Part shown: piece after piece, positions 7,060 to 63,524 of the stretch
Layout of the letters: each line of letters begins with the position of its first letter
Numbering within the stretch: position 1 is the first letter of the stretch
NCBI RefSeq assembly: GCF_035978755.1
Contig: NZ_CP108414.1
Location: 5,766,001-5,830,000, forward strand
Length of the DNA: 64,000 nucleotides
Reading direction: 5' to 3'
Origin: Streptomyces sp. NBC_01298
Lineage (GTDB): Bacteria; Actinomycetota; Actinomycetes; Streptomycetales; Streptomycetaceae
Made by a program: the position numbers and the translations under genes
The notes under the pieces: model-generated
Database searches by the model: none
What the model was told of the DNA's origin: nothing
What the model saw: only the letters and a program-made list of their open reading frames with translations

Positions 7060-8454
7060 GTGGATCAGGGCAGCACGACGACTACGGAGGAGGCCGAGCC
7101 TTCGTCGACCTCTTCGTCGAAGGCATCGCAGTCGTCGCAGTCGTCGCAGTCGTCGACGGCGTCACCGGCCGGGCCGGCCGCGGCGCGCGGTGGGTTCGTG
7201 TTCAGCGAGGCGGACGAGGAGCGTCGCCATGGCGTCCGCCGGATGAAGCGGACCGCCACCGGCCTGCTGATCCTGGTCGCGCTGATCTACGTGGCGGCGA
7301 AGTGGGCGGAGCACGCGGGCGCGGGCGGCTGGGCCGGGTACGTGGCGGCCGGAGCCGAGGCGGGCATGGTCGGCGCGCTCGCGGACTGGTTCGCCGTCAC
7401 CGCGCTCTTCCGGCGGCCGCTCGGCCTGCCCATCCCGCACACCGCGATCATCCCGACGAAGAAGGACCAGCTCGGCGTCTCGCTCGGGGAGTTCGTCGGG
7501 GAGAACTTCCTCTCCGCCGACGTGGTCCGTACGAGGCTGCGCGCCCTCGGCATCGGCGGCCGGCTCGGTGCCTGGCTGGCCGAGCCCGCGCACGCCGACC
7601 GGGTCACGGCGGAGCTGGCCACCGCCCTGCGCGGGGCGCTGACCGTCCTGCGGGACTCCGATGTGCAGGCCGTCGTGGGCGAGGCGATCACGCGGCGGGC
7701 GGAGACGGCGGAGATCGCGCCGGGCATCGGCAAGACGCTGGAGAAGGTCGTCGCGGACGGCGGCCACCGCCGGGTCGTGGACCTGGTGTGCGCGCGGGCG
7801 TACGACTGGCTCGTCACCCACGCCGAGTCGGTCGAGGCGGCGGTGCAGGGCGGGGCGCCGGGCTGGACCCCGAGGTTCGTGGACCGCAAGATCGGCGACC
7901 GCGTCTACAAGGAACTGCTCCGCTTCGTCCAGGAGATGCGGGACATGCCGGAGCACCCGGCGCGCGGGGCGGTGGACCGCTTCCTCGCGGACTTCGCGGC
8001 GGACCTCCAGTCGGACACGGAGACGCGGGCGCGGGTGGAGCGCCTGAAGTCGGAGATCCTGCAGCGGGAGGAGATCCAGGACGTGATCGCCTCCACCTGG
8101 ACGGCGGTCCGCTCGATGATCATCTCGGCGGCCGAGGACGAACGCAGCGCGCTGCGCCTGCGGGTCCGTTCCTCGCTGATGTCCCTGGGCTCGAGGCTGG
8201 CCACGGACGGCCGGCTCCAGGACAAGGTGGAGGGCTGGATCGAGGGCGCGGTGGTGTACGTGGTCACCACGTACCGCAAGGAGATCACCTCCCTCATCAC
8301 GGACACGGTGGCGGGCTGGGACGCGGAGCACACCTCGCGCAAGATCGAGGCCCACATCGGCCGCGACCTCCAGTTCATCCGCATCAACGGCACGGTGGTC
8401 GGCGCCCTGGCGGGCCTCCTGATCTACACGGTGTCGCGGGCCTTCGGCGCGTAG
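7060..8454 (+). CDS. DUF445 family membrane protein
   Basis: A 464-residue protein of the DUF445 family. After a Ser/Thr/Glu-rich N-terminus, a membrane segment and the conserved block EAGMVGALADWFAVTALFRRPLGLPIPHTAIIPTKK mark the family. A long helical cytoplasmic region follows, and a second hydrophobic segment ends the protein (VVGALAGLLIYTVSRAF). The family resembles YheB/YjiN proteins of unknown function. I use the GTG after AGGAG; an ATG 54 bp upstream (7006) is also in frame with a plausible GGGAG, but the codons between have poor Streptomyces third-base bias. Confidence 0.85.
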   Translation: MDQGSTTTTEEAEPSSTSSSKASQSSQSSQSSTASPAGPAAARGGFVFSEADEERRHGVRRMKRTATGLLILVALIYVAAKWAEHAGAGGWAGYVAAGAEAGMVGALADWFAVTALFRRPLGLPIPHTAIIPTKKDQLGVSLGEFVGENFLSADVVRTRLRALGIGGRLGAWLAEPAHADRVTAELATALRGALTVLRDSDVQAVVGEAITRRAETAEIAPGIGKTLEKVVADGGHRRVVDLVCARAYDWLVTHAESVEAAVQGGAPGWTPRFVDRKIGDRVYKELLRFVQEMRDMPEHPARGAVDRFLADFAADLQSDTETRARVERLKSEILQREEIQDVIASTWTAVRSMIISAAEDERSALRLRVRSSLMSLGSRLATDGRLQDKVEGWIEGAVVYVVTTYRKEITSLITDTVAGWDAEHTSRKIEAHIGRDLQFIRINGTVVGALAGLLIYTVSRAFGA

Positions 8455-12850: not shown

Positions 12851-13288
12851 GTGGAAGCCCTTGAGAGCACTCCCGGCGATCGAGCTCGTATGAGCCGCCA
12901 GAAGAGCAAGGACACCGGGATTGAGATGGCCTTGCGGCGAGCCTTGCACGCGGCGGGCTTGCGCTACCGGGTCCATCGTCGACCGGCGAAGGGGGTGCGA
13001 CGCGAAGCCGACATCGTCTTCGGCCCCACACGGGTCGCCGTCTTCGTGGACGGCTGCTTCTGGCACGGATGTCCCGAACACGTGACGTGGCCCCGACGAA
13101 ATGCCGAGTTCTGGCGAGCCAAGATCGAGGGAAACCGGGCACGGGACCACGACACCGACGTGCGCCTCGCCGAGTCCGGCTGGCTGTCGCTCCGGGTGTG
13201 GGAACACGAGAGTCCCGACGAAGCCGCCGTCCGCATCGTGCGGGCAGTCGAGGAACGGCGGTCCGGCCGCGTGTCCGCCGGGCGGTGA
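12851..13288 (+). CDS. vsr: Vsr-type very short patch repair endonuclease
   Basis: A 145-residue homologue of Vsr, the nuclease that nicks 5' of T in T:G mismatches made by deamination of 5-methylcytosine. Family blocks are present in order: MSRQKSKDTGIEMALRRALH, GLRYRVH, ADIVFGPTRVAVFVDGCFWHGCPEH (catalytic Asp and zinc/active-site His/Cys region), EFWRAKIEGNRARD and GWLSLRVWEHE. I start at the GTG because the residues before the internal ATG (12890) align with the usual N-terminus. It opens the island and has two cytosine methyltransferase genes on the opposite arm, the classic Vsr partner. In R-M islands Vsr-fold proteins may also be the restriction nuclease itself. Confidence 0.9.
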   Translation: MEALESTPGDRARMSRQKSKDTGIEMALRRALHAAGLRYRVHRRPAKGVRREADIVFGPTRVAVFVDGCFWHGCPEHVTWPRRNAEFWRAKIEGNRARDHDTDVRLAESGWLSLRVWEHESPDEAAVRIVRAVEERRSGRVSAGR

Positions 13289-13369
13289 CGGGCTGTCGGG
13301 GCCCCTGAGTGAGTCCGCACCGTCACCGCTATTTGGCATCGCCTGACTCGTCAAAACTCCGCTGTTAGG

Positions 13370-13392
13370 GTGATCGTGGCCTACGTAATCAC
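13370..13392. promoter_or_regulatory. Inverted repeat upstream of HTH-ATPase gene
   Basis: GTGAT (13370-13374) and ATCAC (13388-13392) flank a 13-bp spacer containing the palindrome TACGTA, 26-48 bp before the ATG of the XRE-domain protein. It is a candidate operator for autoregulation; the arms are short, so this is tentative. Confidence 0.3.
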
Positions 13393-13417
13393 GAGCCTGA
13401 CCAGCGGAGGAAGACGT

Positions 13418-15511
13418 ATGGAGCAGCCGGGCGAGGAGTTCGGTCCGTGGCTCTCGCGTCAGTTGAGCCGCATGAACATGACGCAATCCGATCTTGGTGA
13501 TCGGCTGGGGCTGACTGGGGCGGTTCTCTCCGCGTGGGTCAATGGACGGAGCGGGCCGCGAGACGAGACCAAACATGCTCTCGCCGAGTTGTTCGGCACG
13601 GATGCCGCATCGGTGCCCAGCCGATCCACCGCTGTCCCACCCGAACCCCCCCGACGCTGGCACCATCGTCCGGCCCACGCCGACGGAGGCCGTGAATATG
13701 GCAACGCCGCCACCTTCGCCTTCGATGCGGACATGTCCGTGCTGGCCCGGGAAGCGACCCAGAACTCCCTCGACGAGCGCCACGACCCGAGTGTTCCCGT
13801 GCGCATGCACTACACCCTGCACGAACTGAGCGGAGAGTTCCTTTCGGACTTCCTTGCTGCTCTGCGCTGGGAGGATCTGCGACCGCACTACGACCAAGCG
13901 GCGTCGGCCGAGCAGAAGGTCTCGAGGAGCCTGCGGGCGGCACTGGACGATCTGGAGACGCGGAAGTCCCTCCTCCTGCTCCGCGTCGACGACTACAACG
14001 CCAACGGCCTCACCGGCCCCGAGTATCAGGACGGGCGCTTCGCCGCCGTGGTCAGGCGTCAGCTCGACAGTCACAAGGAGGCCGGTGGTCGGGCGGGCGG
14101 GTCCTACGGTCTGGGGAAGGCCACACTATGGGCCGCGAGTCGATTCGGCCTCGTGCTGATCAACTCCACCCTCTCCGAGCCGTATGAAGGGCGTACGGAG
14201 CGACGCGTCATTGGACGGTTGGACCTTCCGTGGAGGCAGGTGGGAGGCGAGGCGTTCGCGGGCCCGGCTTGGTTCGGCGAGCCCGACTCCGAACCCACCC
14301 ACAAGGACGTGTCGCGCTCCTGGTGGGCGAGCGGGGATGTGGTCCGCAGCCTCCATCTCGAAAGGAGGGACGGAACTCCTGGGACGTCCTTCCTCGTGGT
14401 GGGCGCGCACGACGCCTCGGGAGATGCGGAAGAGTTGCAGGACCTCCACGAAAAGTTGGTCCGCTCGCTTGCCGACGGGTTCTGGGCAGCCATGATCGGA
14501 GGACGCGACGCGGGCCCGCTGTTGGACGTCCGGGTGAGCGCCCTGCGCAACGGCCGTGTGGTCATCGGGGAAGAGAGGGTCGACCCGCATTCCCGACATC
14601 CGGCCCTGAGCCGAGCGTTGCAGTGCCACCTCGACGGCAGGGTGGTGGACGTGCTTACATCAGCCGACCAGGTGGCCCGTGTCGAGGTCCCGCTGATAGT
14701 GACGCCCCGAAAAGGCCATGGACGGGTGCGCGACAAGGGCAGGGAGCACCGCGCGGTCCTCTTGCTCACCCCGGCGGCCGATACGGATGAGAAGCACAGC
14801 CGCGTCGTCTGCATGCGTGGCAACCGCATGACCATCACGGAACACAGGCCGCGCGAGTTGCCGCTCGGCACCACGCCTTTCCAGGCAGTCCTCCTTGCCG
14901 GGTACGCGACGGATCGTACGGGTGAGGACGTGGACCTCGCCGAGGCGTTCCTGCGTGCTTCGGAGCCACCCGAGCACGACCGTTGGGACCGCACGGAGGA
15001 ACTGACCTCCCTCTACGAGCGTGGTGCCGTCAGCCGGCTCAAGGAGTTTCGCGGTGACGTGGACAAGGCGGTACGCGGCCTCGTGGGGAGGCGGGACGTC
15101 AACCGATCCGGGGGCCCTGCGGTGTTGAGGGACCTCCTGAAGCTGGGTGTGCCCACAGCGGCGCAACGGAGGACACAGAGCTTCCCCGTGGTCCGGAGCG
15201 TCGATGCGCGCGTCGATGATGCCGGGGCTTGGAACGTGACCGTGGAAATCAAGCTGCCCGATGCGGAGGATCCCTGGCTGCTGACGCCGGTGGCGAAGTT
15301 CGACGTGCGCTCCGGTGGCAGGCCGGTGGTCGATTGGGCCGAGCTCGTCGCGTCCGTCGACTGTCGTGTGGAGGCGGGCGACCTGGTGGTCGACCCCGGG
15401 GTACGCACGGCCGTGTTCCATGGTGTGACCGATCCCCGCACCCACCCGGTGCATGGTGGGTTCGCCCGCCTTGTGGTGGAGGTCCAGAAGGCGCGCGGGG
15501 GTGTGAAGTGA
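13418..15511 (+). CDS. XRE helix-turn-helix fused to GHKL-type ATPase (defence island)
   Basis: A 697-residue fusion. Residues 8-60 form an XRE/Cro-type DNA-binding domain (MTQSDLGDRLGLTGAVLSAWVNG). From about 95 a GHKL (gyrase/Hsp90/histidine-kinase/MutL) ATPase begins: N-box REATQNSLDE (Glu112, Asn116), G1-like DDYNANGLTG (191-200) and glycine lid GGSYGLGK (227-234). About 400 residues of unassigned sequence follow. Strong start: ATG after GGAGGAAGACGT. Its stop overlaps the next start (GTGA), so the three rightward genes are coupled. GC is visibly lower than in the flanks. It may be a DNA-sequence-guided ATPase switch or a self-regulating component; that is inference. Confidence 0.82.
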   Translation: MEQPGEEFGPWLSRQLSRMNMTQSDLGDRLGLTGAVLSAWVNGRSGPRDETKHALAELFGTDAASVPSRSTAVPPEPPRRWHHRPAHADGGREYGNAATFAFDADMSVLAREATQNSLDERHDPSVPVRMHYTLHELSGEFLSDFLAALRWEDLRPHYDQAASAEQKVSRSLRAALDDLETRKSLLLLRVDDYNANGLTGPEYQDGRFAAVVRRQLDSHKEAGGRAGGSYGLGKATLWAASRFGLVLINSTLSEPYEGRTERRVIGRLDLPWRQVGGEAFAGPAWFGEPDSEPTHKDVSRSWWASGDVVRSLHLERRDGTPGTSFLVVGAHDASGDAEELQDLHEKLVRSLADGFWAAMIGGRDAGPLLDVRVSALRNGRVVIGEERVDPHSRHPALSRALQCHLDGRVVDVLTSADQVARVEVPLIVTPRKGHGRVRDKGREHRAVLLLTPAADTDEKHSRVVCMRGNRMTITEHRPRELPLGTTPFQAVLLAGYATDRTGEDVDLAEAFLRASEPPEHDRWDRTEELTSLYERGAVSRLKEFRGDVDKAVRGLVGRRDVNRSGGPAVLRDLLKLGVPTAAQRRTQSFPVVRSVDARVDDAGAWNVTVEIKLPDAEDPWLLTPVAKFDVRSGGRPVVDWAELVASVDCRVEAGDLVVDPGVRTAVFHGVTDPRTHPVHGGFARLVVEVQKARGGVK

Positions 15512-16491
15512 CCGCGGTGTTTCCCTATCCGACGATCTTCGGAGACATCGACCTGAAGGTCGTCTCCGTCTCCGTCGATGGCGCGGAGCTTCCGTACGAC
15601 AAGATCTCCGCTGCGGACCGGGCAGTGGCCCTGCACCGGTCCGGGCGGGGCGAATGGGATCGTGCCAGGCTCCGGGTCGTCGTCACGGCTCCGAACGAGG
15701 AACTGCTCTCGGGGCCGTGGTCGGATGTCGCCTTTCTCGCGGTCCTGTCGGAGAAGGCCACCAACAGACGCTTCGCGACGGTTCTTCTACGGGGCGCGGA
15801 CGGGACCATGCAGGGAACGGTCGAGCTGGACCGAGCATGCCACGTCAGTCGCGCGATGTTGGGCGTCCTCGTGGTGGCGACCGTCGGCGGAGTTCCGGGC
15901 CGCCTGGTCGGTGTCTCCACGGAGGACTGGGCCGTCGACCTCAAGGCTTCCGTGCCTGTGCGGCAGCGGGAGATCGACATCGTCGAAGTGGACTTCAAGG
16001 AAGGCCCGCACGAGTGGCTGCGGCCGTACAAGGAGTCCGCGTGGATCGTCGAGACCGCGGGGGAGATCCCCACCGTCTACCTCAACACGGGCGCCGTAGA
16101 AGGACTGATCGAGGCGCTCGCCGGCACCGGGGGAAGTGCTGCGGTGAGGACCCTGCGTGAGCTCAGCGCGAGTCAGATCGCCCAGGATGCCTGGACGGCG
16201 ATGTTCCACACCGCGATCAGCGACCTGGACGTCGACGAGGACGGAACTCCGTTGATGCCCACCGGTTGGCGAGAGGCGGTTCTCCGCGTGATGCTCCCCG
16301 ACGTGCTGCCCGGTCGGCAGCTCACCGACGCCCTGTACGAGCTCACCGAACGGCGTACGAAGGGTCACGGTTGGGCGGAGGTCCAGACGGGTGTGCAGTT
16401 CGCGGCGGGACGGCGCAGTCGCACCACGAGGAATCTGACCAACGCGGTGCGCTCGGTGCACGGGGAGGAAGAGAACGGTGTCTCCAGGTGA
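15508..16491 (+). CDS. Unassigned defence-island protein, 327 residues
   Basis: I do not recognise this family. It is soluble, mixed alpha/beta and mildly acidic, with no membrane segment. The N-terminal half contains beta-rich stretches (LKVVSVSVDGAELPYD, RLRVVVTAP); the C-terminal half is helical (SASQIAQDAWTAMFHTAISDLDVDEDG, LTDALYELTERRTKG). No nuclease, ATPase or HTH motif is visible. The GTG start overlaps the upstream TGA, and the stop lies 5 bp before the next start, so it is made together with the XRE-GHKL ATPase and is probably its partner protein. Confidence 0.72.
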   Translation: MTAVFPYPTIFGDIDLKVVSVSVDGAELPYDKISAADRAVALHRSGRGEWDRARLRVVVTAPNEELLSGPWSDVAFLAVLSEKATNRRFATVLLRGADGTMQGTVELDRACHVSRAMLGVLVVATVGGVPGRLVGVSTEDWAVDLKASVPVRQREIDIVEVDFKEGPHEWLRPYKESAWIVETAGEIPTVYLNTGAVEGLIEALAGTGGSAAVRTLRELSASQIAQDAWTAMFHTAISDLDVDEDGTPLMPTGWREAVLRVMLPDVLPGRQLTDALYELTERRTKGHGWAEVQTGVQFAAGRRSRTTRNLTNAVRSVHGEEENGVSR

Positions 16492-16496
16492 GCGGC

Positions 16497-17435
16497 ATGA
16501 ATCGTGAGGATCTCCCCTCGATGCTGGGCTTCCTGTCCGATGCCGCTGTGGCCAAGCATCTGAGCCGCGCGGTGCAGACCGGCCAGGCGACACCGCCGCA
16601 GATGGCCCTGCGCAAAGCATCCGAGGAACTTGCTCCTGGATCTCGATGGCGTACGGCACCGGTACGCGACCTCGTGGAGCAGGCGATGATCCGACACGAC
16701 GGCAACCGGGCGGCCGCAGACGGGTGGTTGGCTCCGCGCCTGCACGCGACGCTGCGCATGACACGTGCGGAGGCCGCGGACAACCGGTTGTGGAACCACC
16801 TGGCCATGGTCGTGGCCCCGGACTACGTCGCGTGGAGGCATAGCCGGTTGGACGCGGATGCGGGGCAGGGCGCGGCGACAGTGACGCGTTTCTCGGGGCC
16901 GCACTACACGCAGGCCTTCTCGCGGCTGTGGTGGGCGGCCGAGCTCTTTCGGGACGGATCGGACTACCGTCCGGTCGAGGTCGCCTGCCGGCTGCAGGAC
17001 GTGCTCCAGACGACCATGCGTCTTGACGTCATCGATCATCGTCCTACGGCACAGGCGATCTTGAAGATCCTCGGTAGGCGGCTCGCCGCAGGAGAGCGGC
17101 GTATGGGAGATAGGGTCAACGCTCTGTCGGCTGCGGTGAACGCGGCGGGCAGCACCTTGGTGTACGAGGTGCTCGCTCCTGACGGAGGACCCGAGACCGA
17201 TGCGCTTCGCGACTGGATCGACGAGTCGGAGCACGCGGCGGCGGTTCCTTGGGAGCGGCTGCCGGAGGGTCCCGACGACGGAACCGTGCGACAGGCCTCT
17301 GTCGAGGCGTTGGTTCCGATCTTCGACCGGCTCCTGGCCGAGGCCCCACTGCGCGACAGGGGGGCGAGAAGGAAGGGCCTCGCGGAGCCCGTCTCGGCCG
17401 GCGTGAGCCTCGCCAAGCCGTCGGACCGTGCGTGA
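16497..17435 (+). CDS. DUF6339-like defence-island protein
   Basis: A 312-residue soluble, largely helical protein. The central part NRLWNHLAMVVAPDYVAWRH and the following SRLWWAAELFRDGSDY resemble DUF6339-type proteins as I remember them (not checked). It has no known catalytic motif. It is the last gene of the rightward arm, ending 20 bp from the convergent methyltransferase gene. The ATG follows AGGTGAGCGG; an in-frame GTG at 16488 that overlaps the previous stop codon is an alternative start. Co-expression with the XRE-GHKL ATPase suggests a shared complex or pathway. Confidence 0.72.
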   Translation: MNREDLPSMLGFLSDAAVAKHLSRAVQTGQATPPQMALRKASEELAPGSRWRTAPVRDLVEQAMIRHDGNRAAADGWLAPRLHATLRMTRAEAADNRLWNHLAMVVAPDYVAWRHSRLDADAGQGAATVTRFSGPHYTQAFSRLWWAAELFRDGSDYRPVEVACRLQDVLQTTMRLDVIDHRPTAQAILKILGRRLAAGERRMGDRVNALSAAVNAAGSTLVYEVLAPDGGPETDALRDWIDESEHAAAVPWERLPEGPDDGTVRQASVEALVPIFDRLLAEAPLRDRGARRKGLAEPVSAGVSLAKPSDRA

Positions 17436-17455
17436 AACGCCGGTACCGGCCGGTC

Positions 17456-18727
17456 TCACATACGCGGTGCCAGGTAGGTGTGGATGGCCTCGGCCAGGGT
17501 CGAGCCGAGGCCGACGGGTACGGCATTGCCGATCTGGCGGGCGATCTGAACCTTCGTCCCGAACCACTTGAATTTTGACGGGAACCCTTGAATGAGGGCC
17601 GCCTCGTAGTGGGTGATGGGGCGATCCGCCGTGGGGTGGAGATAGCGCCCCTTTTCCGGCTTGTAGAATTCCGTGCGAATGGTGACGGAGGGCGTGTGCA
17701 TCCGGAGACGCCCCATCACGTCTCCGGACCCGGAATTGTGATTGTCCCAGCTCGGTGTCGAGAGGGAGATTTCCTCTCCCTCGATCTCGGCGTACCCGGC
17801 ATCCGTGGACAGGCGGATATTTCCTGCCGCATCCATGCGGTAGGAAACGCCGCGCAGGTCGTTCCGGTTTCCGTTCTTCTTGATCGCCATGTACCGCGCG
17901 CGGGAAAGATCTTCCGGGTGCCGGCGGAAGTGGAGGTCGGTCGTGAGGTAATGCCCCGGCACGCCGTCGACGAGAGCGTTCCCGCCCCGAGGTCCGGGCA
18001 TCTCCTCTAGGAGGCGGCGCTTGGCAGACGTACCGAAAACCTTTGAAACGGGCTCCCAGCGAGGCCTGATCGCGGACCCGTCGAAGAGTGATCCTTGTGC
18101 GGGATCGGTATCGATCACGGGCCCGTTCTTCGCGTGCGTCGGCTCGGGATGCCGGAGCGGGGTCCCGAAATCCTTGTGCGTGCAGATCACGATCACGCGG
18201 CGCCGAGCCTGCGGGACCCCGTAGTCGGCAGCGTTCATCATCGCCGGCACCACGGTGTAGTCGTACAGGGGGTGACCCGGCGTTTCGGAGGCAGTGCGGA
18301 GATCGTCGAACTGGGGAGACCTCAGGAAGCGGTCCACGTTCTCGATCACGAACAGTTTGGGGTGGACCTTGGCCACCACCTTGACGTACTCCTGCCACAG
18401 CTCGTTTCGGGGGTCGTCAGGGTTCTGCTTGCCGAGCCCGGAGAAGCCCTGACACGGAGGCCCGCCCATGATCACGTCGACCTGGCCCTTGTACGGGGTT
18501 GCGTCGAAGTGCGCGATGTCACCCGGGTACACGTGTGAACCACCGAAGTTGGCGGCGTAGGTGGAGGCCGCCGCTGCGTCGAACTCCACTGCCGCGACCG
18601 ACTTGAAGGGACTCACGCCACTCGGCTTGTATCCGGCGAAACCAGCGGAAAAGCCACCAGCCCCGGCAAACAGGTCCATGACCCGGATCTCCCCGGGCTG
18701 AGACGACTGAGGCTGGTTCTTGCTCAT
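17456..18727 (-). CDS. DNA (cytosine-5-)-methyltransferase, apparently active
   Basis: A 423-residue C5-cytosine methyltransferase with all the main motifs in order: I DLFAGAGGFSAGF (18-30), IV GGPPCQGFS with catalytic Cys92, VI ENV (129-131), VIII QARRR (173-177), a target-recognition region of about 150 residues, IX/X ending RQIGNAVP. It would protect host DNA in the island's restriction system; the recognition site cannot be predicted. The ATG has no Shine-Dalgarno, but TACACT ends 8 nt upstream on the coding strand, suggesting a leaderless transcript from its own promoter. A TTG 9 bp upstream is an alternative start. Last gene of the leftward arm. Confidence 0.92.
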   Translation of the reverse strand: MSKNQPQSSQPGEIRVMDLFAGAGGFSAGFAGYKPSGVSPFKSVAAVEFDAAAASTYAANFGGSHVYPGDIAHFDATPYKGQVDVIMGGPPCQGFSGLGKQNPDDPRNELWQEYVKVVAKVHPKLFVIENVDRFLRSPQFDDLRTASETPGHPLYDYTVVPAMMNAADYGVPQARRRVIVICTHKDFGTPLRHPEPTHAKNGPVIDTDPAQGSLFDGSAIRPRWEPVSKVFGTSAKRRLLEEMPGPRGGNALVDGVPGHYLTTDLHFRRHPEDLSRARYMAIKKNGNRNDLRGVSYRMDAAGNIRLSTDAGYAEIEGEEISLSTPSWDNHNSGSGDVMGRLRMHTPSVTIRTEFYKPEKGRYLHPTADRPITHYEAALIQGFPSKFKWFGTKVQIARQIGNAVPVGLGSTLAEAIHTYLAPRM

Positions 18728-18780
18728 GAGGGTCAAGTGTAGTCACCGGTGTCGGTCGTATTGCAGGGGTTCGATGAGCG

Positions 18781-19761
18781 TCAGGCGCGCAGCGCGGAGG
18801 CGATGGCGGCACCGAGAGTGCGGCCCACGGGAGGCGGTGAGGCATGGCCGATCTGGCGATATCGAGCCGTCTTGCGACCGGCGATGCGCCACTCGGGTGG
18901 GAAACCCTGCAACAGGGCCGCCTGGTCGACGGTCAACGGCATCATTCCGGGTCGGCCGAGCGCCGGATCCCAGTGGAAAGTCTCGTCGGGTACCTCGTCG
19001 GCGACGGTCCCTCCGTCAACGCCCATGCGGGCCCAGGCGCCCTTCGACCCCGTCGGACCCAAATCGGCGCCTCCCCGAGCCCAGGACCCGCCCACAAGGG
19101 TCGGGGCCGGTTCGACGGCCTGCGCCGCCCAGCGCGCGGCATCGGGCCAGCCCCGCCGGGACATGGATTCGACCAAGGCCTCACCCACCGAGAGGTGTTT
19201 GTTCACGGTCGCGAGCGGTTCGACGAACGCGTCGAGAACATCGCCTTTGAACGCGACCAGGATGCCCTGACGTCGCATCTGGGGGACCCCGTAGTCGGCA
19301 GCGTTGATCACGAGCCACCTGTGCCGATAGCCGAGGTGGGAGAGTTCCGCGGCCACATAGTCGCGGATCGCCTCATAGGCCGGCTTGGTCGCCAGGTCGG
19401 GCACGTTCTCGACGAGCAGGGCCTTCGGCTGCACTCCGTGCATGAGCATCATGGTGGCGCGCAGCAGCTCGAGCTCGACGTCGCTGTCACGTCGACCGGC
19501 GGTGGCCGTGGCCTTCACACGGGGTAGACCTGCGGACAGCAGGTCTACGTCGTACGTCTGCTGGTGCTCACAGGGGTCGAAGTCCAGGAGGTTCGTCTCC
19601 AGAACCTTCCAGTGGGGTCTGTTCCATCTGAGCGTCTCGACGGCCACGTCCCGATTGTCGAGAAGTAGCACGGGGTCGAATCCCGCCTGCTCCAGGCCCA
19701 GTGCGAGACCGCCGGCGCCCGAGCAGACGTCCAGGGATCGCATTCGTTCCACGACCGTCAC
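18781..19761 (-). CDS. C5-cytosine methyltransferase paralogue lacking the catalytic cysteine
   Basis: A 326-residue C5-methyltransferase-fold protein. Motif I is LDVCSGAGGLALGL (10-23), motif VI is ENV (118-120), the motif VIII region is QMRRQ (161-165), and the C-terminal motif X reads RQIGHASPPP. In motif IV, where GGPPCQ is expected, it reads SAGLPRVKA, so Arg81 replaces the catalytic Cys. The SAM pocket looks intact, so it may bind SAM and DNA without methylating, or act as a regulatory or specificity partner of the neighbouring active enzyme. The GTG follows GGAGGGCGG, 24 bp after the Z1 gene stop. The smaller size also fits a reduced target-recognition region. Confidence 0.85.
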   Translation of the reverse strand: MTVVERMRSLDVCSGAGGLALGLEQAGFDPVLLLDNRDVAVETLRWNRPHWKVLETNLLDFDPCEHQQTYDVDLLSAGLPRVKATATAGRRDSDVELELLRATMMLMHGVQPKALLVENVPDLATKPAYEAIRDYVAAELSHLGYRHRWLVINAADYGVPQMRRQGILVAFKGDVLDAFVEPLATVNKHLSVGEALVESMSRRGWPDAARWAAQAVEPAPTLVGGSWARGGADLGPTGSKGAWARMGVDGGTVADEVPDETFHWDPALGRPGMMPLTVDQAALLQGFPPEWRIAGRKTARYRQIGHASPPPVGRTLGAAIASALRA

Positions 19762-19785
19762 GCGTACCGCCCTCCGACTCCCGGA

Positions 19786-22743
19786 TCAGCCCTTGTCGAT
19801 CTCCGACCTGTCGATGATCGCACTCGCCGCCGAGGAGACCGTTGTGAATTGGACAACCCGGCCGTTGGCGCTCTGCGCGGTTGCCGGGGCGACGAAGGCG
19901 AAAGCCATGACGACCTTGTCCGTGCCCAAGCGACCCTCGGAGTCGATGGATGCGCGGTGATGGCGCTCGAGCACCGGATAGAGGACGAGCGCACCGCGGC
20001 GCTCGCCGACGAGGCTCTCCGTTGCGGCGTCGCCTGAATCAGGGAGGGCGCCCGCGATCCGATAGGCGACTCCACGGTGCTTCCGGTCGCTGATGGCGCC
20101 GAATAGAGGATGCCGGTCCTTGCGGCGGTCACGGGCGAACCAGGAGTAGCTGCGGCCCGCGGCGCCGAGCCTCAAGGTCTTGTTGTCGGAGGCCAGGTGT
20201 TGGGGGGCGAGGACGAGCCAGTCGTCGATCTTGCCGGGGGTGGCTCGAGTGATTTCCTGGAGGTACCGGAGGTGGGGATCGAAGGGGTCGGCGGTCTCCC
20301 AACTCAATTGCTCGAAGACCGACAGCATCGTCTCGGCGGGCACGTTGCCGGTCAGCGCCGGGAACCGGTGCGTGATGCCCTCTTGGGGGAAGTGGTAGGC
20401 GTACGTCGTGGGGACTTCGCCGAGGCTTTCCAAGACGGGCGACCACAGGGCCGTGTTGTTTTCCAGGCCCTTCTGGGGATAGGCGGTGGGCTCCTCCCAG
20501 CGGCCGGCCGATCGGACGAGTTCCAGCCGGGCGTTGTACATCTTGTTCGGACTCGTCGGCTTCAGCCACGGAGCATGCTGGGAGACGAGCGGCGGGATCT
20601 GGTCGGGGGTGACCTGAGGGCGCCCGTCGACCATTTCGGAATAGCGTTCCAGCTCCGATCGGAATGCTTCCTCGTCCCGGCAGATGGCTTGGAAGCCGTC
20701 GTAAAGATCGAATTCTGACCCTCCGATCGTTTCCTTGCGGCCGAGGTACAGGCGGACGAGGTCTCGATATCCCTTTCGGAAGCCGAACCAACGGCCCATT
20801 TGCATGAGGGTGGAAGCGTTCCCGGCCCGGCGCCGGAAGAAGGAGACGGTGAGTCCCTCGACCGTGAACCCACGGGCGAGTTTTTGGCCACCGATGAGGA
20901 TCTTCCAGATCGCGCGCTTGTCGAAGTCGGCCTCGCCCGTCTCGAGGTCCTGGTCGCCGTTCACAACGATGATCGGTTGCTCGTCGCCGCCGATGCGGAC
21001 GACCGCAGGTCCCACGTAGGGCAGGAGTTCGTCGTACGAGGCGGGGACGGCATGCCCGTCGGAACGTACGGCGGAGACCAGGGAGACGTCGGTGTCGAAC
21101 AAGTGGCGCAGTCGAGCGTGGCCCTGGGGTCCCGTGTAGCCGGATTCGTGCCACAATCCGAGGACCCGCTCGTGCAAGGACCGATGTACATGGGTCCGTA
21201 CGGACTCGTGGATCAGCATCGTGTGGTGCTGGAAGAATCCGTCTCCGAGGCCCCCCAGGTCCTCCCGGTACAGCTTCATCGCCGCACTCAGGACGAACAT
21301 GTCCATGGCTTGCTGCATACAGGTGTCGTCGTCGGCATCGTCCACGATGTCGCGTACGTGTGCCTTCTCGTTGGAGTTGGCGAAAGTGAGCTCGCCGGCC
21401 TCCAACGCAGAGTCCAGATCGTGGAAGTCTCGCGCCCCCATGTACCCGTCCGGTCGGGGGAGGGAGATGATGAAATCCTTGGGGAAGATGTCCTCGGTGT
21501 CGCTGGGGTCGACGAAGACGTTGGCGAACGGTGTGGCGGTGTAGCCCACGTACTGGGCTCGGGGCAGCATCCTCAGGAGCTTGGAGATCTGCTCGTTGAT
21601 GGCACTTCGCTGAGCCGCATCCGGCTTCGACGTGTTGACGGACGCTTCGTCCGATTCGTCGTCGATGATCAGAACGGGGATCTCGGAGAGCGGTGTTCTG
21701 ATCTTGCCGAGGTCCTTGACGAGCTTGGCCAATACGGTCTTGTTCTTTTTGACCACCATGAGGCTCGCGGACGAACGGTGAAGGTTCTCTCGGTCGTACA
21801 GCGGGAGCGCCGGCTCTCGCTTCTCGAATTCCAGAGCCGTGATGCCTTGGAGGAGACTCTTGTAGTCGTTCTTCCGCGTTGTCATGCGGACGATGTCGAA
21901 GGCCCCCAGCGCTGACGGCATGCCGCCGAAGGTGATGAACTTTCCGGCCTTCCAGGCCGGGTCGTCGGCGTAGTCCGACTCCATTTCGTCGGCGCCGCGC
22001 ATGATGTTCTCCCGCCCCACGAGTTCCATGTCGAGGCGGCGCTGAGTCTGGGCTCGCAGCATGTTGAGCGTGCCGCCGAGGACGATCACCAGGCGGTATC
22101 CGGCGTCGACGGCCTTGGCCATGACACCGGTGAAGTTGGCTGTCTTACCGGACTGGACGTACCCGACGACGAGGCCCTTCGATTGGTAGACCTCCTCGTC
22201 CGTGGGGTCGGCCAGCCGTTCGACGACCTGGTCCGTCGCGACATCGAGACCGGCGATGGCGTGCGGGGACCATCCCTTGGCGACGAGGAGTTTGCGGTAC
22301 GCCGGCCAGTAGTGAGGTCGGCTCCGCTGCGACTCCGGGGTGTACCACGGCTTGAACTTCTCGCTGATCACGAGGGGGCCGGCGGTCTTGGGGACGGGGA
22401 CGAGCTCGTCGAGCAGCTTGTAGGTGGCGTCTTCAAGCTTGAGCAGGTGGTAGACCTCGATGCGGCGCTCGTCCGTTCGCGGCGCCGCATCCCCCCAGGC
22501 GGGATGCTCCGCGTAGTCCCACTTGGTGAGCTGGCGGCGCCACAATTCGACCAGCTGGTCGGTGGACCTGGCCTCCCGCAGGGCGGACTGGAAATCGCTC
22601 TCGGAAGCGAATGCCTCGGCATCGGGATGCATGTCTTCGGCTTGGTAGACCAGAGCACGGGCCAAGTTCTTGGGCTTGCTGCCATCCAGGTCGGCCAGTA
22701 CGGCGCCGTGCAATTCGAGCCTGAGGGTGTCGTTGCCTGTCAT
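19786..22743 (-). CDS. Z1-domain superfamily II-like ATPase/helicase
   Basis: A 985-residue protein of the Z1 family, large P-loop ATPases related to superfamily II helicases and found in predicted restriction systems. Walker A is GYVQSGKTANF (Lys200-Thr201), Walker B is VLIIDDESDEAS (Asp361, Asp362, Glu363), and a helicase-like motif III reads YTATPFANVF (401-410). The Z1 core follows with GGQKLARGFTVEGL and MQMGRWFGFRKGY. It would supply DNA translocation or remodelling energy. The ATG follows GAGGATTCCCG, 16 bp after the PD-(D/E)XK gene stop, so it belongs to the leftward operon. Confidence 0.9.
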   Translation of the reverse strand: MTGNDTLRLELHGAVLADLDGSKPKNLARALVYQAEDMHPDAEAFASESDFQSALREARSTDQLVELWRRQLTKWDYAEHPAWGDAAPRTDERRIEVYHLLKLEDATYKLLDELVPVPKTAGPLVISEKFKPWYTPESQRSRPHYWPAYRKLLVAKGWSPHAIAGLDVATDQVVERLADPTDEEVYQSKGLVVGYVQSGKTANFTGVMAKAVDAGYRLVIVLGGTLNMLRAQTQRRLDMELVGRENIMRGADEMESDYADDPAWKAGKFITFGGMPSALGAFDIVRMTTRKNDYKSLLQGITALEFEKREPALPLYDRENLHRSSASLMVVKKNKTVLAKLVKDLGKIRTPLSEIPVLIIDDESDEASVNTSKPDAAQRSAINEQISKLLRMLPRAQYVGYTATPFANVFVDPSDTEDIFPKDFIISLPRPDGYMGARDFHDLDSALEAGELTFANSNEKAHVRDIVDDADDDTCMQQAMDMFVLSAAMKLYREDLGGLGDGFFQHHTMLIHESVRTHVHRSLHERVLGLWHESGYTGPQGHARLRHLFDTDVSLVSAVRSDGHAVPASYDELLPYVGPAVVRIGGDEQPIIVVNGDQDLETGEADFDKRAIWKILIGGQKLARGFTVEGLTVSFFRRRAGNASTLMQMGRWFGFRKGYRDLVRLYLGRKETIGGSEFDLYDGFQAICRDEEAFRSELERYSEMVDGRPQVTPDQIPPLVSQHAPWLKPTSPNKMYNARLELVRSAGRWEEPTAYPQKGLENNTALWSPVLESLGEVPTTYAYHFPQEGITHRFPALTGNVPAETMLSVFEQLSWETADPFDPHLRYLQEITRATPGKIDDWLVLAPQHLASDNKTLRLGAAGRSYSWFARDRRKDRHPLFGAISDRKHRGVAYRIAGALPDSGDAATESLVGERRGALVLYPVLERHHRASIDSEGRLGTDKVVMAFAFVAPATAQSANGRVVQFTTVSSAASAIIDRSEIDKG

Positions 22744-22759
22744 CGGGAATCCTCGTTCG

Positions 22760-23740
22760 TCACGGGAGACGGAAGTCTGTGAGATCGACCGGGGATCCCG
22801 GCACGGGGGTCAGGTGGTTGACGTGAATGCAGTAGTCGATCGAGGAAACGTGCTCCCTGACCGCGGCGGGAAGCATGTCCGTGGTCATCCTCGGCAAGTG
22901 GTCGGCCGGAACGAGCAGCGGTTCGGTACGTAGGGTCCAACGCTCGTCATCCCGTTCGTCGGAGGACCATCCCGCCGATGCGAGGGAGGCTTCGATGGAC
23001 ATCGCGGCGATGCGGTCGGCCGCGCGGGCGTCGCGGAGCACCGCGGCGGCCGAGTCCCCGAGGGAACGCCCCCCGATTCCGCCTCGGGTCAGCTGGAGGG
23101 AGGCGAACCAGAGAGAACGTCCTTCGGACTCCTCGAGCTGCCTGATTCCGTGAACGGTGTGCCGGCGCTCTTCGGCCGTCGTCGTCTTCACCTCGAGGTC
23201 CGTGGCCGCGAGTCCGAAATCGTGCTGCTCCCCACGGGGGCCCGTCCAGGACCGGGCCGCCGCCTCCCACCCGTGCGACCGGGCCACTGCCTGCAGAACG
23301 GCGAGTTCCCCGTGGAGGCCGACCCGCTTGTCCAGGCCGAGTCCGTGAGGCCGACCGAGCAGTTCGCCCCAGGCGCGGATGGTTTCTTCGAGGGCTTCCT
23401 CCAGCGTGCGGTCGCCGGTGACGATGCGATCCGCCACGGCCATCAGAAGGTCGTGGAAGTCGCGCACGAGGGCCACCTGAGTGGTGCTGATCCGTGCCAT
23501 GCGTGTGCCGTGATGGTTGATTTGGTCGATGGCCACGGCAGGCAGGGTGGAACGAGGAGGCCTTTGGTGGCGGTCCAGTTCCACGGTGAGCGAGATGTCG
23601 CGCCCGCCCTGGCCGATCTCGTACCGGACCGTACGCCGAGCCCCGGCATCGGAAAGTCGATAGCTCGTGGCTTGGCCCGCGCCCAGGTAGTGCTCGACCG
23701 TCGACCAGCCCAGTTCCGGGGCAGTGCCGCGGTCAGTCAT
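22760..23740 (-). CDS. PD-(D/E)XK nuclease-fold protein
   Basis: A 326-residue putative restriction nuclease. The catalytic constellation is readable as Glu145 (GLHGELAVL), Asp174 (QHDFGL) and Glu183-x-Lys185 (DLEVKTTT), which fits the E-D-ExK arrangement of restriction-endonuclease-fold proteins. The remainder is unassigned. The ATG overlaps the end of the upstream ATPase gene by 8 bp (ATGACTGA), implying tight co-translation. Gene order ATPase-nuclease-Z1 is the recurring core of MORC/Z1-linked restriction systems. It probably cleaves unmodified DNA; this is inference. Confidence 0.88.
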   Translation of the reverse strand: MTDRGTAPELGWSTVEHYLGAGQATSYRLSDAGARRTVRYEIGQGGRDISLTVELDRHQRPPRSTLPAVAIDQINHHGTRMARISTTQVALVRDFHDLLMAVADRIVTGDRTLEEALEETIRAWGELLGRPHGLGLDKRVGLHGELAVLQAVARSHGWEAAARSWTGPRGEQHDFGLAATDLEVKTTTAEERRHTVHGIRQLEESEGRSLWFASLQLTRGGIGGRSLGDSAAAVLRDARAADRIAAMSIEASLASAGWSSDERDDERWTLRTEPLLVPADHLPRMTTDMLPAAVREHVSSIDYCIHVNHLTPVPGSPVDLTDFRLP

Positions 23741-25265
23741 CGTCGCCCATCCGTTCGAGCTCCACTCGTGCGGCGGCGACCAGAATGGACTGCCACAACT
23801 GCAGATTGTCCTTCTCTCGACTGCCGCTGTAGTCCTTCTCGAAGACCTGGTGGAGGAGGAGGTAGACGAGGGTTTTGACGGTGGGAGCGTCGTTCAGCCC
23901 ACCGCGACGCCCGCCCAAGAGGGCCGTCCTGTAATGCTGATTGAGAACGATGGTGCGCTCTTCGCGGTCGATCTCGAAGAAGACGCTGTTGTCCAACTTT
24001 TGCCAACGGACCGAGATGGGTTCCTCGCCCTGAAGCAGGGGGAGCTCGTCCTCGATCGTTTCGCGCAGGGTGGGGTCGAACCCCTTGCCCGGGCCGATGA
24101 CGGGCTTCCGGGTGGTGCTCGCACGCTTCCGAGAGTCCCGATAGACCGCGTCGGCCTCAGCCACGTACCCGGGGAACCTTCGCCCCTCGGAGTCCACGGC
24201 TCCGTCAAGCGCCGCGATGAACTCGGGAGAGACTTCCACCCCCTCCTTCTTCACGGTGAGTCGAAAGACGTCCGCGGTATCGGAGGGGAGATCAACGGCG
24301 ACCCGCGCCAGTGCGAGGTGTTGTTCGGGCTGGCGGAAGTTGTTCCAGCCGCCTGCTTGAACCAGCCTGTTGTGGCGGTAGAAGTAGAAGCCCTGCCGGT
24401 CGAGCCCCGTGCCGACGGCTTTGAAGCCGTCCAGGGTGGATTTGGCTGGCCAGATATGGGCCTCGAGTGACATTCGGCGGATCGACGGGCAGTCGACGGT
24501 GAACCGGCGGGGGTGGTCCGGGTGACCGGACACCGGATACGCGAAGGGGTCGAGTGGCTCGACGCCGAAGTTCATGTATTCGGTTCCGGTATTCACGTCC
24601 TCGACGGCAATGGTGATGTTGAAGTCGTCGCGGGCCAGGAAGCGATGGAGGTACAAGCCGAGCTGGAGCCCGAGACGATTGATGGTGCGTAGTAGATAGC
24701 GGTTGGTCTGCCCGCCCCCTCCGTGGCGAGGGAAGTCCTTCACCCCGTCCCAGCGGATGACCGTTCCCTGCCAAGTGATCGGCCGATCGGAGTAGCGGTC
24801 GATCAGGGACTGGGCGTAGTCGCCCGCGACGATGTCGCACTGGTACCCGCTGACGGCTCGCTCCATGAGCCAGCGCCGCCCGACGGCCCTCGTCCGTCGC
24901 GTCTTGCTCACTACGGTCACTGCGGCGGCATGACTCAAGGAGGCCGACTTGAGCCCCGTCCCGAACATTCCCAGGGACTGGGGGTCGTATCCGCGACGGC
25001 CGCCGACGGTCATCGCGACGTCGAGTTCCTCCTCGGTCATGCCCTTGCCGTCGTCGATGACCAGGAGGCTGACCAGCCGGTCCTCGTCACGCAGAAAGTG
25101 AATGACGACGTCGCGCGCCCCGGCGTCGATGGAATTGTCGACGAGGTCGGCGATGGCGGTCTCGAACCCGTACCCCTGGCTGCTGAGCGCTTCCATGTAC
25201 CGGGAGTCCGGTGGGAGGTGCTTGGTTCCGGTCGTGGGGACGTCGAACTGCCAGTCGTCGGTCAT
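23733..25265 (-). CDS. MORC/MutL-type GHKL ATPase of the defence island
   Basis: A 510-residue ATPase with the GHKL fold of MutL, Hsp90 and MORC. N-box ADLVDNSIDAGA (Asp40, Asn44, Asp47), G1 IDDGKGM (70-76) and G2 LGMFGTGLKSAS (98-109) are complete, and the second domain carries the expected basic residues. Dimerising ATPases of this class clamp DNA and license nucleases. First gene of the leftward operon. I start at the ATG after AAGGCAGGAA; another ATG 24 bp upstream lacks a binding site. The stop overlaps the nuclease start. Together with Z1 and PD-(D/E)XK genes this defines the likely restriction module. Confidence 0.88.
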   Translation of the reverse strand: MTDDWQFDVPTTGTKHLPPDSRYMEALSSQGYGFETAIADLVDNSIDAGARDVVIHFLRDEDRLVSLLVIDDGKGMTEEELDVAMTVGGRRGYDPQSLGMFGTGLKSASLSHAAAVTVVSKTRRTRAVGRRWLMERAVSGYQCDIVAGDYAQSLIDRYSDRPITWQGTVIRWDGVKDFPRHGGGGQTNRYLLRTINRLGLQLGLYLHRFLARDDFNITIAVEDVNTGTEYMNFGVEPLDPFAYPVSGHPDHPRRFTVDCPSIRRMSLEAHIWPAKSTLDGFKAVGTGLDRQGFYFYRHNRLVQAGGWNNFRQPEQHLALARVAVDLPSDTADVFRLTVKKEGVEVSPEFIAALDGAVDSEGRRFPGYVAEADAVYRDSRKRASTTRKPVIGPGKGFDPTLRETIEDELPLLQGEEPISVRWQKLDNSVFFEIDREERTIVLNQHYRTALLGGRRGGLNDAPTVKTLVYLLLHQVFEKDYSGSREKDNLQLWQSILVAAARVELERMGDDD

Positions 25266-25363
25266 TTCCTGCCTTGGAGACTCGCCCATACGGAGTGACT
25301 AAGGGTAACGGCGGTCGCCATCCATGGACAGGGCCCTATGTCCCCACGGTGGGGGCGAGTAGG

Positions 25364-26365
25364 TCAGGCCGCCCCGTGGCAGTCGCCGTAAGGCCTGCCC
25401 GACGTGCACCAGCACGGGTTCGTCCGGGTGGGGGGCCACGGGGTGGCTTTGCCTCGGGCGGCCAGGGTGGTGGCGTATTCCGCCAGGAGGGACGGGGAGG
25501 ACGGGGAGGTTTTCTCCGAGGCCGCGAAGGCTTCGTAGGAGGGGACGCTGGCCGTGACGATGCCCAGGTTCGTGGTGCCCGAGGCGGCCAGGGTGCGGAG
25601 GGAGGCTTCGACCTGGGCCAGGTGGGCGTCGTGGGAGGGGTACTCCGCCGAGAGGGTGGGGTACGAGGTCAGGAGTTCTGCCAGTTCGCGGGCCGGCCAG
25701 TGGAGGATGGCCACCGGGAAGGGGCGGGAGAGCGCGGCGCGGCGGTCGCCGAGTTCGGCGCGCAGGCGGGCGATCTCGGCGCGGAGTTCGGCCGGGTCGT
25801 CGGAGCCCAGGGCCCAGATGCGCTTGGGGTCGTGGAGTTCGTCCAGCGGGATCGGGCCGATGTGGCGGGTGTCCGCGACCATGTCCCAGTCGTCGTGGGG
25901 GAGTCCGAGGAGGCGGCGTACGCGGTGGCGGCCCGTGAGGAGCGCCGTCGTGGCCTGGGTGAGGGGGGTGTTGTCCGGGGCCAGGAGGGTGGCCGCCTCG
26001 GTGAAGCACTCGTGGGAGGCCTCGAGTTCGTCATGGGCTTCCAGGGCCTCGGCGATGACTTCCCAGGGGGCGGGGTCCGCGGGGGCCGCCGCCCGGATGC
26101 CCTGGATGAGGGCGCGGGCCTCGGGCTCGTGGCCGTACTCCCAGAGGTTGGCCGCCTGGAGGGCCTTGATGAGGGAGGGGTCGTCCGTCGTGTCCGCGGC
26201 CAGGAGTTGGTCGTAGAGGGCGCTCGCCCGTTCGCGTTCGTCGGCCAGTTCGAGGTGGGCCGCGGCCTGGAGGAGCAACGGCTCCTGGTCCTCGGGGTAG
26301 CGGGTCGCCGTGCGGATGAGGCGCTCGGCTTCGGCGATGTGCTCGGCAGGCGTGTCGGGGCGCAT
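25364..26365 (-). CDS. SEC-C metal-binding-motif protein with TPR-like helices
   Basis: A 333-residue protein. The first 220 residues are helical repeats resembling tetratricopeptides (EAERLIRTATRYPEDQEPLLLQAA, AHLELADERERASALYDQLL). The extreme C-terminus is a SEC-C zinc motif, NPCWCTSGRPYGDCHG, matching the C-x-C-x8-C-H pattern also found at the end of SecA. The role is unknown; such proteins are common in Streptomyces. No Shine-Dalgarno precedes the ATG, and TACGCT lies 7 nt before it, compatible with a leaderless mRNA. Divergent from the sortase gene, 47 bp apart. The 98-bp gap between its stop and the defence ATPase start holds no gene. Confidence 0.85.
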   Translation of the reverse strand: MRPDTPAEHIAEAERLIRTATRYPEDQEPLLLQAAAHLELADERERASALYDQLLAADTTDDPSLIKALQAANLWEYGHEPEARALIQGIRAAAPADPAPWEVIAEALEAHDELEASHECFTEAATLLAPDNTPLTQATTALLTGRHRVRRLLGLPHDDWDMVADTRHIGPIPLDELHDPKRIWALGSDDPAELRAEIARLRAELGDRRAALSRPFPVAILHWPARELAELLTSYPTLSAEYPSHDAHLAQVEASLRTLAASGTTNLGIVTASVPSYEAFAASEKTSPSSPSLLAEYATTLAARGKATPWPPTRTNPCWCTSGRPYGDCHGAA

Positions 26366-46250: not shown

Positions 46251-46258
46251 TGCGTCTG

Positions 46259-46332
46259 TGCGCCGCCAGGGACTCGAACCCCGGACCCGCTGATTAAGAG
46301 TCAGCTGCTCTAACCAACTGAGCTAGCGGCGC
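46259..46332 (-). tRNA. tRNA-Lys (anticodon CTT)
   Basis: A 74-nt cloverleaf with a 7-bp acceptor stem GCGCCGC/GCGGCGC, D-loop AGCTCAGTTGGTTAGAGC, anticodon loop CTCTTAA (anticodon CTT) and T-arm GGTTCGAGTCC. The 3' CCA is not encoded. It is identical to the copies at 53.6 and 63.5 kb. Confidence 0.97.
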
Positions 46333-47953: not shown

Positions 47954-50914
47954 ATGTACCCCACGCGCACGACATCGACCACGGGCACCTTCCAGATCCC
48001 CCCGCACCCGACACCCCGAGCGATGGCCCCCCTGGTGGAGGCCGGGAGCGAGGCGACTTCGGGCGGAGCCGGCCGGACCGGAGCCACCTCCGCCGGAGCG
48101 GACCCGGCCGGAGCCGCCCAGGCTGTTGCCGCCCCGGCCGGAGCCGGTCCCGACGGAGCCGCCCCGGGCGTTGCCGCCCAGGCCGCAGCCGGCCTGATCG
48201 GAGCCGGTCCGGGCGGAGCCGCCCAGGCCGGTGCCACCCAGGGCGGGGCCGCCTTGGCCGGAGCCGCCGGAGCCATTCCGGCCGGAGCTGGTCCCGGCGC
48301 TGCCGTGCCGGCAGCGGTCGGCCCGCGGTGGGCCGTTCCGGCTGCCGGAGGCTCTTCGGCCGGAGCCGCTGCGGACGCCGCCGCACGGGCCGGAGCCGTG
48401 CCGGACGCATTCACACCGGCAACTGCCGCTCCCCGCTGGGCCGTTCCGGCCGAGCGCGACCGGGTCGTTCCGGCGCCGGCCACGGCAGGACATGCAGCGG
48501 CGGAGGCCGGCATCGAGCGGGGCTCGCACTGGCCGGGAGGCCATGACCGGGCCGCGTCCGGGCACTCCGCTACCGCACCGGCCGCCGCCGGGCGGGCAGA
48601 GGCCGAGCCCGAGGCCGGTACGGAGCCGTGCTCGCACCCGGCCACGCCCGACCGGGCCGGGTCCGCGCCGGTGGCTTCGGGGCGGGCAGCAGCCGAAGCC
48701 GCCACCGAGCGCGGCTCGAACCCGTCGGCCGAGCACGGCCGGGCCGCCTCCGCGCAGGCCGCCTCCGCGCAGGGCGCCTCCGCGCCGGGTGTTGGCGGAT
48801 GGGTCGGGGCCTCCGTGGCCGTGGCCTCCGGCGCGGTGCCGGCCGTGGGTTCCGCGGCGTCCGCGTCCGGGACGGCGGCACCGGTGACCGAGTGGACCGC
48901 GCCGACCGGTTGGGACCTGGCGGCCGGGCTCTCCGGGCCCCTGCACGCGGAGGCCGGCGCCGGGGACGGACGGGAAGCCGGCGGCTTCCCCACAGTGGGT
49001 GTGGCGCCGCACGGGCTCGCCGGTCGGATCGGGGAGGCCGCGCGCAGCGACGTACCCGCGGCGCGGGCCCAGGCCGGGCCCGGGGTGGACATCCCGCATC
49101 CCCAGGACGAGGCGGCCCACGCCGCCGCGGCCACGCTCCGGCCGCGGCACCCCGACACCGAGACGGCCAGGCCGCACCCGCAGGACGACGAGGCCCGGCC
49201 CCCGGCCGTGTCCCTCTCCGCCGCGACGGCCAGGGCGGAGCACGCCCCGCGGCACGCGGGTCCGCCCGCCGCCTGGGACCTGCCCGGACAGGGCGGCTCG
49301 TCCGCCGAGCAGGGGCGGGCCCCGCAGCACGCGGTTCCGGCCCCCGCCGCGGAGGCCGCGTACGCGGATCCGCACCCGGTACGGGACCTGCCCGAGCCGG
49401 GCGACGCCGGTCCGGCCGACCGGGCCGCCGGGCGGGAGTTGACCTGGTCCGTGCCCGCTCCGGGCGCGGCCGGTGACGCCGACCCCGTGGGCGGCGATCC
49501 GACGGGCGGCAGCCCCGTCGGCAACGGACCCGCAGGCAACGGACCCGTAGGCGGCGACGCCGACTCAGGACGGGAGACCTCGGACGGGCAGGCCGTCACG
49601 CTCGGGTCCGCCACCGGCGGGTCCGCGGCCGACGCGGCCGAGGAGGGCGAGCCCGCCCACGGCGAGCCCGCCCACGGCGAGCCCGCCCACGGCGAAGCCG
49701 CGACCGGTCCGCAGCCCGCGACCGGCAACGCCATCGTTCCCGGGCCCGAGGCCGCGGCCGCCGCGGCCGGCCCGGACGTCGCCGACGTCGTCGCGCGAGC
49801 CGTCGCCCGCATCGCGGAGGACGACACGCAGGATCTCCCCCGGGTCGCCCCGCCCCGCGGCGTCGCGGTGACCGAGGTGCCGGTGCACCTGCCGTTCCGC
49901 GGCGCGGGCCAGCCGACCCCGCAGCCGCAGCCGAACCCGCAGCCGAAGCCGGGAGACCCGGCCCCGCCGAAGGCCAAGGCCGCCGCGACCCGGCCCGCCC
50001 CCGGACGCCGCGTACCCCGGGGCGACGACCGGCTCCACGAGCACCGCGGCCCGGTGCTCCCCGGCTGGATCGCCGTAGCCGTCGGCGGCATCGCGCTCGC
50101 CGGCTGCGCCGTCGTGCTGTGGCGGGCCGGGGCCGTCCCCGACGCCCTCGCGGTGGCCTTCGGCGCGGAGCCCCGCCCCTACCGGGGACTACAGGCACGG
50201 TTCTGGCCGCCGCTCGCCTTCCTCGGGGTCGTCGCCCTGCTCGCCCTCGGCGGTCTGGGCCGCGGCCGCGCCGGCCACGCCTGGGTGCTCACCCTCTTCG
50301 GCCGCTACCGCGGCACCGTCCGCCGTAGCGGCCTGACCTGGATCAGCCCCCTCCTGCTGCGCCGCCGGGTCGATGTCCGGCTGCGCCACTGGCGCAGCGA
50401 CCCGATGCCCGCCGTGGACTCCGGCGGCCTCGCCCTCCAGGTCGTGGTCCAGGTGGTCTGGCAGGTCAAGGACACCGCCCGGGCGACCCTGGCGGTGGAG
50501 GACCACGTCGACTACCTCGCCGAGCAGGTCGAATCGGCCATGGCCCGGGTCCTGTCCCAGCTCCCCGCCGACGCGTTCCACGAGGACGCCCCGACCCTGC
50601 GCGACGCCGAAGCCGTCGGCGACGCGCTGACCCGGATGCTGGCGGCCGAGACCGAGGCGGTCGGGGTGGAGGTGTTCTCGGCGCAGCCCACCCGGATCGA
50701 GTACGCCCCCGAGGTCGCGGACGCCATGCGCCGACGCCGGGTCGCGGCGATCGACGCGAAGCACCGGGACACCGTGCTGACCTCGGTGGTCGACGCGGTG
50801 GACGACACCGTCCACCGCCTCACCTCGCGCGGGATCGTGGAGCTCGACGACTACGAGCGCAAGGCCCTCGTGAAGGACCTGACCGTCGCGTTCTACACGG
50901 GCCGCTCCGAGTAG
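47954..50914 (+). CDS. SPFH (band 7) domain membrane protein with long Ala/Gly/Pro-rich N-terminus
   Basis: A 986-residue protein. The first 650 residues are low-complexity Ala/Gly/Pro/Glu sequence with short repeats such as EPAHG. Two membrane helices follow (GWIAVAVGGIALAGCAVVLW and FWPPLAFLGVVALLALGGL). The C-terminal 210 residues form an SPFH domain (VLTLFGRYRGTVRRSGLTWISP, LQVVVQVVWQVKDTARATL, YLAEQVESAMARVLSQLP). SPFH proteins assemble into membrane microdomains. I chose the ATG with GGAGG 5 nt upstream. The upstream PG-binding gene ends 11 bp earlier, so the two are coupled. Confidence 0.85.
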   Translation: MYPTRTTSTTGTFQIPPHPTPRAMAPLVEAGSEATSGGAGRTGATSAGADPAGAAQAVAAPAGAGPDGAAPGVAAQAAAGLIGAGPGGAAQAGATQGGAALAGAAGAIPAGAGPGAAVPAAVGPRWAVPAAGGSSAGAAADAAARAGAVPDAFTPATAAPRWAVPAERDRVVPAPATAGHAAAEAGIERGSHWPGGHDRAASGHSATAPAAAGRAEAEPEAGTEPCSHPATPDRAGSAPVASGRAAAEAATERGSNPSAEHGRAASAQAASAQGASAPGVGGWVGASVAVASGAVPAVGSAASASGTAAPVTEWTAPTGWDLAAGLSGPLHAEAGAGDGREAGGFPTVGVAPHGLAGRIGEAARSDVPAARAQAGPGVDIPHPQDEAAHAAAATLRPRHPDTETARPHPQDDEARPPAVSLSAATARAEHAPRHAGPPAAWDLPGQGGSSAEQGRAPQHAVPAPAAEAAYADPHPVRDLPEPGDAGPADRAAGRELTWSVPAPGAAGDADPVGGDPTGGSPVGNGPAGNGPVGGDADSGRETSDGQAVTLGSATGGSAADAAEEGEPAHGEPAHGEPAHGEAATGPQPATGNAIVPGPEAAAAAAGPDVADVVARAVARIAEDDTQDLPRVAPPRGVAVTEVPVHLPFRGAGQPTPQPQPNPQPKPGDPAPPKAKAAATRPAPGRRVPRGDDRLHEHRGPVLPGWIAVAVGGIALAGCAVVLWRAGAVPDALAVAFGAEPRPYRGLQARFWPPLAFLGVVALLALGGLGRGRAGHAWVLTLFGRYRGTVRRSGLTWISPLLLRRRVDVRLRHWRSDPMPAVDSGGLALQVVVQVVWQVKDTARATLAVEDHVDYLAEQVESAMARVLSQLPADAFHEDAPTLRDAEAVGDALTRMLAAETEAVGVEVFSAQPTRIEYAPEVADAMRRRRVAAIDAKHRDTVLTSVVDAVDDTVHRLTSRGIVELDDYERKALVKDLTVAFYTGRSE
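49655..49696. repeat. 15-bp tandem repeats in the SPFH gene
   Basis: Three copies of GGCGAGCCCGCCCAC encoding Gly-Glu-Pro-Ala-His lie inside the low-complexity N-terminal coding region. Only the N-terminal disordered part of the protein is affected. Confidence 0.75.
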
Positions 50915-53619: not shown

Positions 53620-53693
53620 GCGCCGCTAGCTCAGTTGGTTAGAGCAGCTGACTCTTAATCAGCGGGTCCGGGGTTCGAGTCCCTGGCGGCGCA
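53620..53693 (+). tRNA. tRNA-Lys (anticodon CTT)
   Basis: A 74-nt gene, identical to the copies at 46.3 and 63.5 kb but on the opposite strand. Anticodon CTT reads AAG codons. It has no encoded CCA. Confidence 0.97.
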
Positions 53694-53785
53694 CCTGTCC
53701 TTCGGGCGGTTTCCGGTTTCACCGGGAACCGCCCGAAGTGTTTTCCGGGTGCTCGCGTGGGTGGGAGCCCGCCCGCCTCCCCCCT

Positions 53786-63443: not shown

Positions 63444-63450
63444 CCGTCTG

Positions 63451-63524
63451 TGCGCCGCCAGGGACTCGAACCCCGGACCCGCTGATTAAGAGTCAGCTGC
63501 TCTAACCAACTGAGCTAGCGGCGC
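63451..63524 (-). tRNA. tRNA-Lys (anticodon CTT)
   Basis: A 74-nt gene, identical to the copies at 46.3 and 53.6 kb. The sequences immediately outside (CGTCTGTG and TTGGTGAC) match those of the 46.3 kb copy, suggesting duplication of a slightly larger unit. Confidence 0.97.

Follow-up and report, generated by a model that had tools for sequence, protein, structure and literature searches.

This study concerns a putative nine-gene DNA-defense island in a window of 64,000 nucleotides from Streptomyces sp. NBC_01298 (GCF_035978755.1, NZ_CP108414.1, positions 5,766,001 to 5,830,000 of the forward strand; coordinates below are those of the window). The island appears to consist of a reusable core to which one of several interchangeable destruction modules is attached. 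A sequence-only reading had proposed a composite island of nine genes at this place, and this observation was confirmed:

12851..13288, + strand: Vsr-type very-short-patch mismatch endonuclease, optional (Pfam Vsr 5.7e-19; NCBIfam vsr above cut-off)
13418..15511, + strand: XRE helix-turn-helix (HTH) and GHKL-like ATPase, PDC-M33A-like, core (HTH_3 3e-6; PDC-M33A 2e-20)
15508..16491, + strand: g3, core, outside known families
16488..17435, + strand: DUF6339 protein, PDC-M33C-like, core (Pfam 2.4e-15)
17456..18736, − strand: C5-cytosine DNA methyltransferase, core (Pfam 6e-59; motif IV GGPPCQG intact)
18781..19761, − strand: pseudo-C5-methyltransferase, core (Pfam 2e-35; motif IV reads GLPRV)
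19786..22743, − strand: a further gene
22760..23740, − strand: DUF4420 PD-(D/E)XK nuclease, effector module, MzaD-like (Pfam 8e-37)
23733..25289, − strand: MORC-type GHKL ATPase, effector module, MzaB-like (HATPase_c_3 7e-22)

To define the core, we combined 30 named actinobacterial loci from a scan of genome contigs with g3, 17 loci besides the window from a draw of 150 genomes of the family, 18 of which have g3, and 40 of 84 strong matches from a 392-genome genus draw, namely the best-scoring among those not already taken. Removing duplicates and L047, which is without g3, left 78 distinct loci, the window excluded; because these samples are non-random, the counts are not population frequencies. 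The dead methyltransferase was present in 71 of these loci, the active one in 73, and both in 69. Thus, the rightward trio of XRE-GHKL ATPase, g3, and DUF6339 protein together with both C5 methyltransferases is a recurrent core. The interpretation of the sequence-only reading, which likened the leftward MORC, nuclease, and Z1 ATPase genes to MORC systems and listed the methyltransferases with this arm, is supported in part; both methyltransferases recur with the rightward trio. Of the 18 family genomes with g3, 17 encode a relative of the dead enzyme (E ≤ 1e-60) no more than ~18 kb from that gene. In eight genomes the core parts form a tight operon without MORC, in which DUF6339 is fused to the dead methyltransferase. 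In L034, L107, and L109, neither methyltransferase lies within the stretch read, and L034 has none on its far side (L068) either. Vsr is present in 48 of the 78 loci at variable positions.

Within the trio, the N/G1/G2-like motifs of the XRE-GHKL ATPase are conserved. g3 had no match in Pfam or PADLOC and nothing credible in NCBIfam; it has 209 homologues at E ≤ 0.001, of which the best 120 are listed, and its structure model combines a beta-sandwich N-terminal part with a helical C-terminal part (predicted local distance difference test [pLDDT] 80.7; predicted template modeling score [pTM] 0.53). The model of the DUF6339 protein is helical (pLDDT 86.6; pTM 0.84). This protein carries a C-terminal GVSLAK tail that is associated with the module, and it is a candidate adaptor.

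Of the two C5 methyltransferases named by the sequence-only reading, only the first has motif IV intact. Its open reading frame starts with TTG, with an ATG 3 codons downstream, and PPC is retained in 63 of 63 aligned copies. The second is catalytically dead, as judged by motif: the motif IV Cys expected of an active enzyme is replaced by Arg in 72 of 72 relatives and was found in none of 121 rows, LPRV aligns opposite PPCQ of DNMT1, and the second Arg of QxRxR is gone, while motif I and ENV are retained. Short remnants of this gene lie beside an otherwise retained core in L028 (13062-13265) and L099 (13019-13129). Conceivably, the dead enzyme serves purely as a structural partner, activating the active one or directing it to its targets, with the trio controlling methylation and having no reading role. 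The joint occurrence of the two enzymes fits this idea, as do the eukaryotic precedents DNMT3L and METTL14, in which a catalytically dead paralogue is paired with an active methyltransferase. However, the dead enzymes form one clade although their active partners belong to two distant families (QGF and QTF), an unexpected pattern if the two made a fixed heterodimer, and the fusion partner of the dead enzyme is DUF6339 rather than the active enzyme. We consider this explanation unlikely. The loss of the catalytic Cys with motif I kept (61 of 72 rows, those in which the region was called) would also agree with a guard that monitors S-adenosylmethionine or the methylation machinery and might fire the effectors upon phage-induced S-adenosylmethionine depletion or methylation inhibition, a possibility that we regard as very improbable.

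In the effector module, the nuclease has the E...D...EVK pattern, and the MORC-type ATPase, so assigned from HATPase_c_3 and its GHKL motifs, has these motifs intact (LVDNSIDA, DDGKGM, and GMFGTGLK). The superfamily-II ATPase motif TLMQMGRWFG is close to the published Q..R.FG consensus.

The island lies in an interval between two flanking genes:

7198..8454, + strand: DUF445 gene, left flank (Pfam 2e-119; matched in 61 of 61 genomes)
25364..26365, − strand: SEC-C motif protein, right flank (Pfam SEC-C 3e-6; matched in 45 of 61 genomes)

Among the 61 genomes searched, 41 have both genes on one contig, at a distance of 1.6-76 kb in 39 and of >1 Mb in two more. Nine g3 genomes have both flanks on a single contig, and in each of them g3 maps by its coordinates inside this interval. 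In a close relative lacking a g3 match (G204; flank identity 95%), 4.9 kb takes the place of the window's 16.9 kb. The interval is an insertion hotspot in the genus. It is unlikely that two independent defense systems, an MZA/MORC-type restriction system and a PDC-M33-type system, share nothing here except the hotspot. The XRE HTH and a relative in which the ATPase is fused to sigma-70 domains (L053, 10530-14126; matches to MzaA, 5.6e-37, and PDC-M33A) could point to an epigenetic regulator of host genes instead of a defense system; the nuclease and helicase modules, the hotspot position, and the patchy occurrence (g3 in 87 of 392 genus genomes at E ≤ 0.001, 3 marginal) make this extremely unlikely. 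We infer a defense function, methylation reading, and docking for the island. Modules that appear swappable on a shared core suggest a plug-in style of bacterial immunity.

Elsewhere, the window contains three tRNA-Lys (ctt) genes that are spread over ~17 kb and over the two strands (46258-46332, 53620-53695, and 63450-63524) and a 2-kb stretch with 81.6% GC (48001-50000).

If correct, this model would link MZA-like systems, DISARM core genes, and the candidate PDC-M33, now listed apart, through one shared core that is common in the genus by g3 count. It would also point to a role for DUF6339 and open self/non-self discrimination by a restriction system without a classical specificity subunit to testing. 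The pairing of a conserved dead methyltransferase with an active one offers a ready handle on the role of the dead enzyme.

Among known systems, the island shares MORC, a superfamily-II ATPase with Q..R.FG, a restriction endonuclease-fold nuclease, C5 methylases, and Vsr with the third operon type of MORC restriction systems, as described in sections of Iyer, Abhiman, and Aravind (2008, PMC2292703). As the sequence-only reading had claimed, those sections on MORC operons do not describe the trio; the word "inactive" does not occur in the text. The paraMORC1-5 proteins are further GHKL families that may stand beside MORC or take its place. In CglI/NgoAVII, as described in PMC4267653, one B3-PLD protein holds recognition and cutting, whereas the island nuclease is DUF4420; B3 and PLD families are absent from the Pfam matches of the nine proteins. 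PADLOC, a check proposed by the sequence-only reading, matched the XRE-GHKL ATPase to M33A and the DUF6339 protein to M33C (3e-9), the two lying close together, one gene apart; it also found MzaB- and MzaD-like proteins and left g3 without a match; the methyltransferase pair and the effector modules lie outside these M33 matches. Unlike MZA (MzaA-E in PADLOC and NCBIfam models), the island has an extra core with a dead methyltransferase, and its scores fall far below the NCBIfam equivalog cut-offs (MzaB 124.5/850, MzaC 261.8/1500, and MzaD 69.9/420 bits). Neither MzaA nor MzaE, the AIPR protein, was detected among the nine genes by Pfam, PADLOC, or NCBIfam; farther neighbors were not all scanned. 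PADLOC found no DISARM DrmA or DrmB among the nine proteins. Many core relatives carry both. Relatives share a C5 methyltransferase with DISARM and, unlike it, add a GHKL-helicase and UvrD, or a NERD-helicase, plus the dead methyltransferase. The island also resembles DNMT3L and METTL14 in pairing a dead paralogue with an active methyltransferase but, unlike these, is bacterial, DUF6339-fused in relatives, and tied to nuclease modules. Altogether, the part-families are already known; what is new is to see them as a single core that combines with exchangeable modules and includes a conserved dead methyltransferase.
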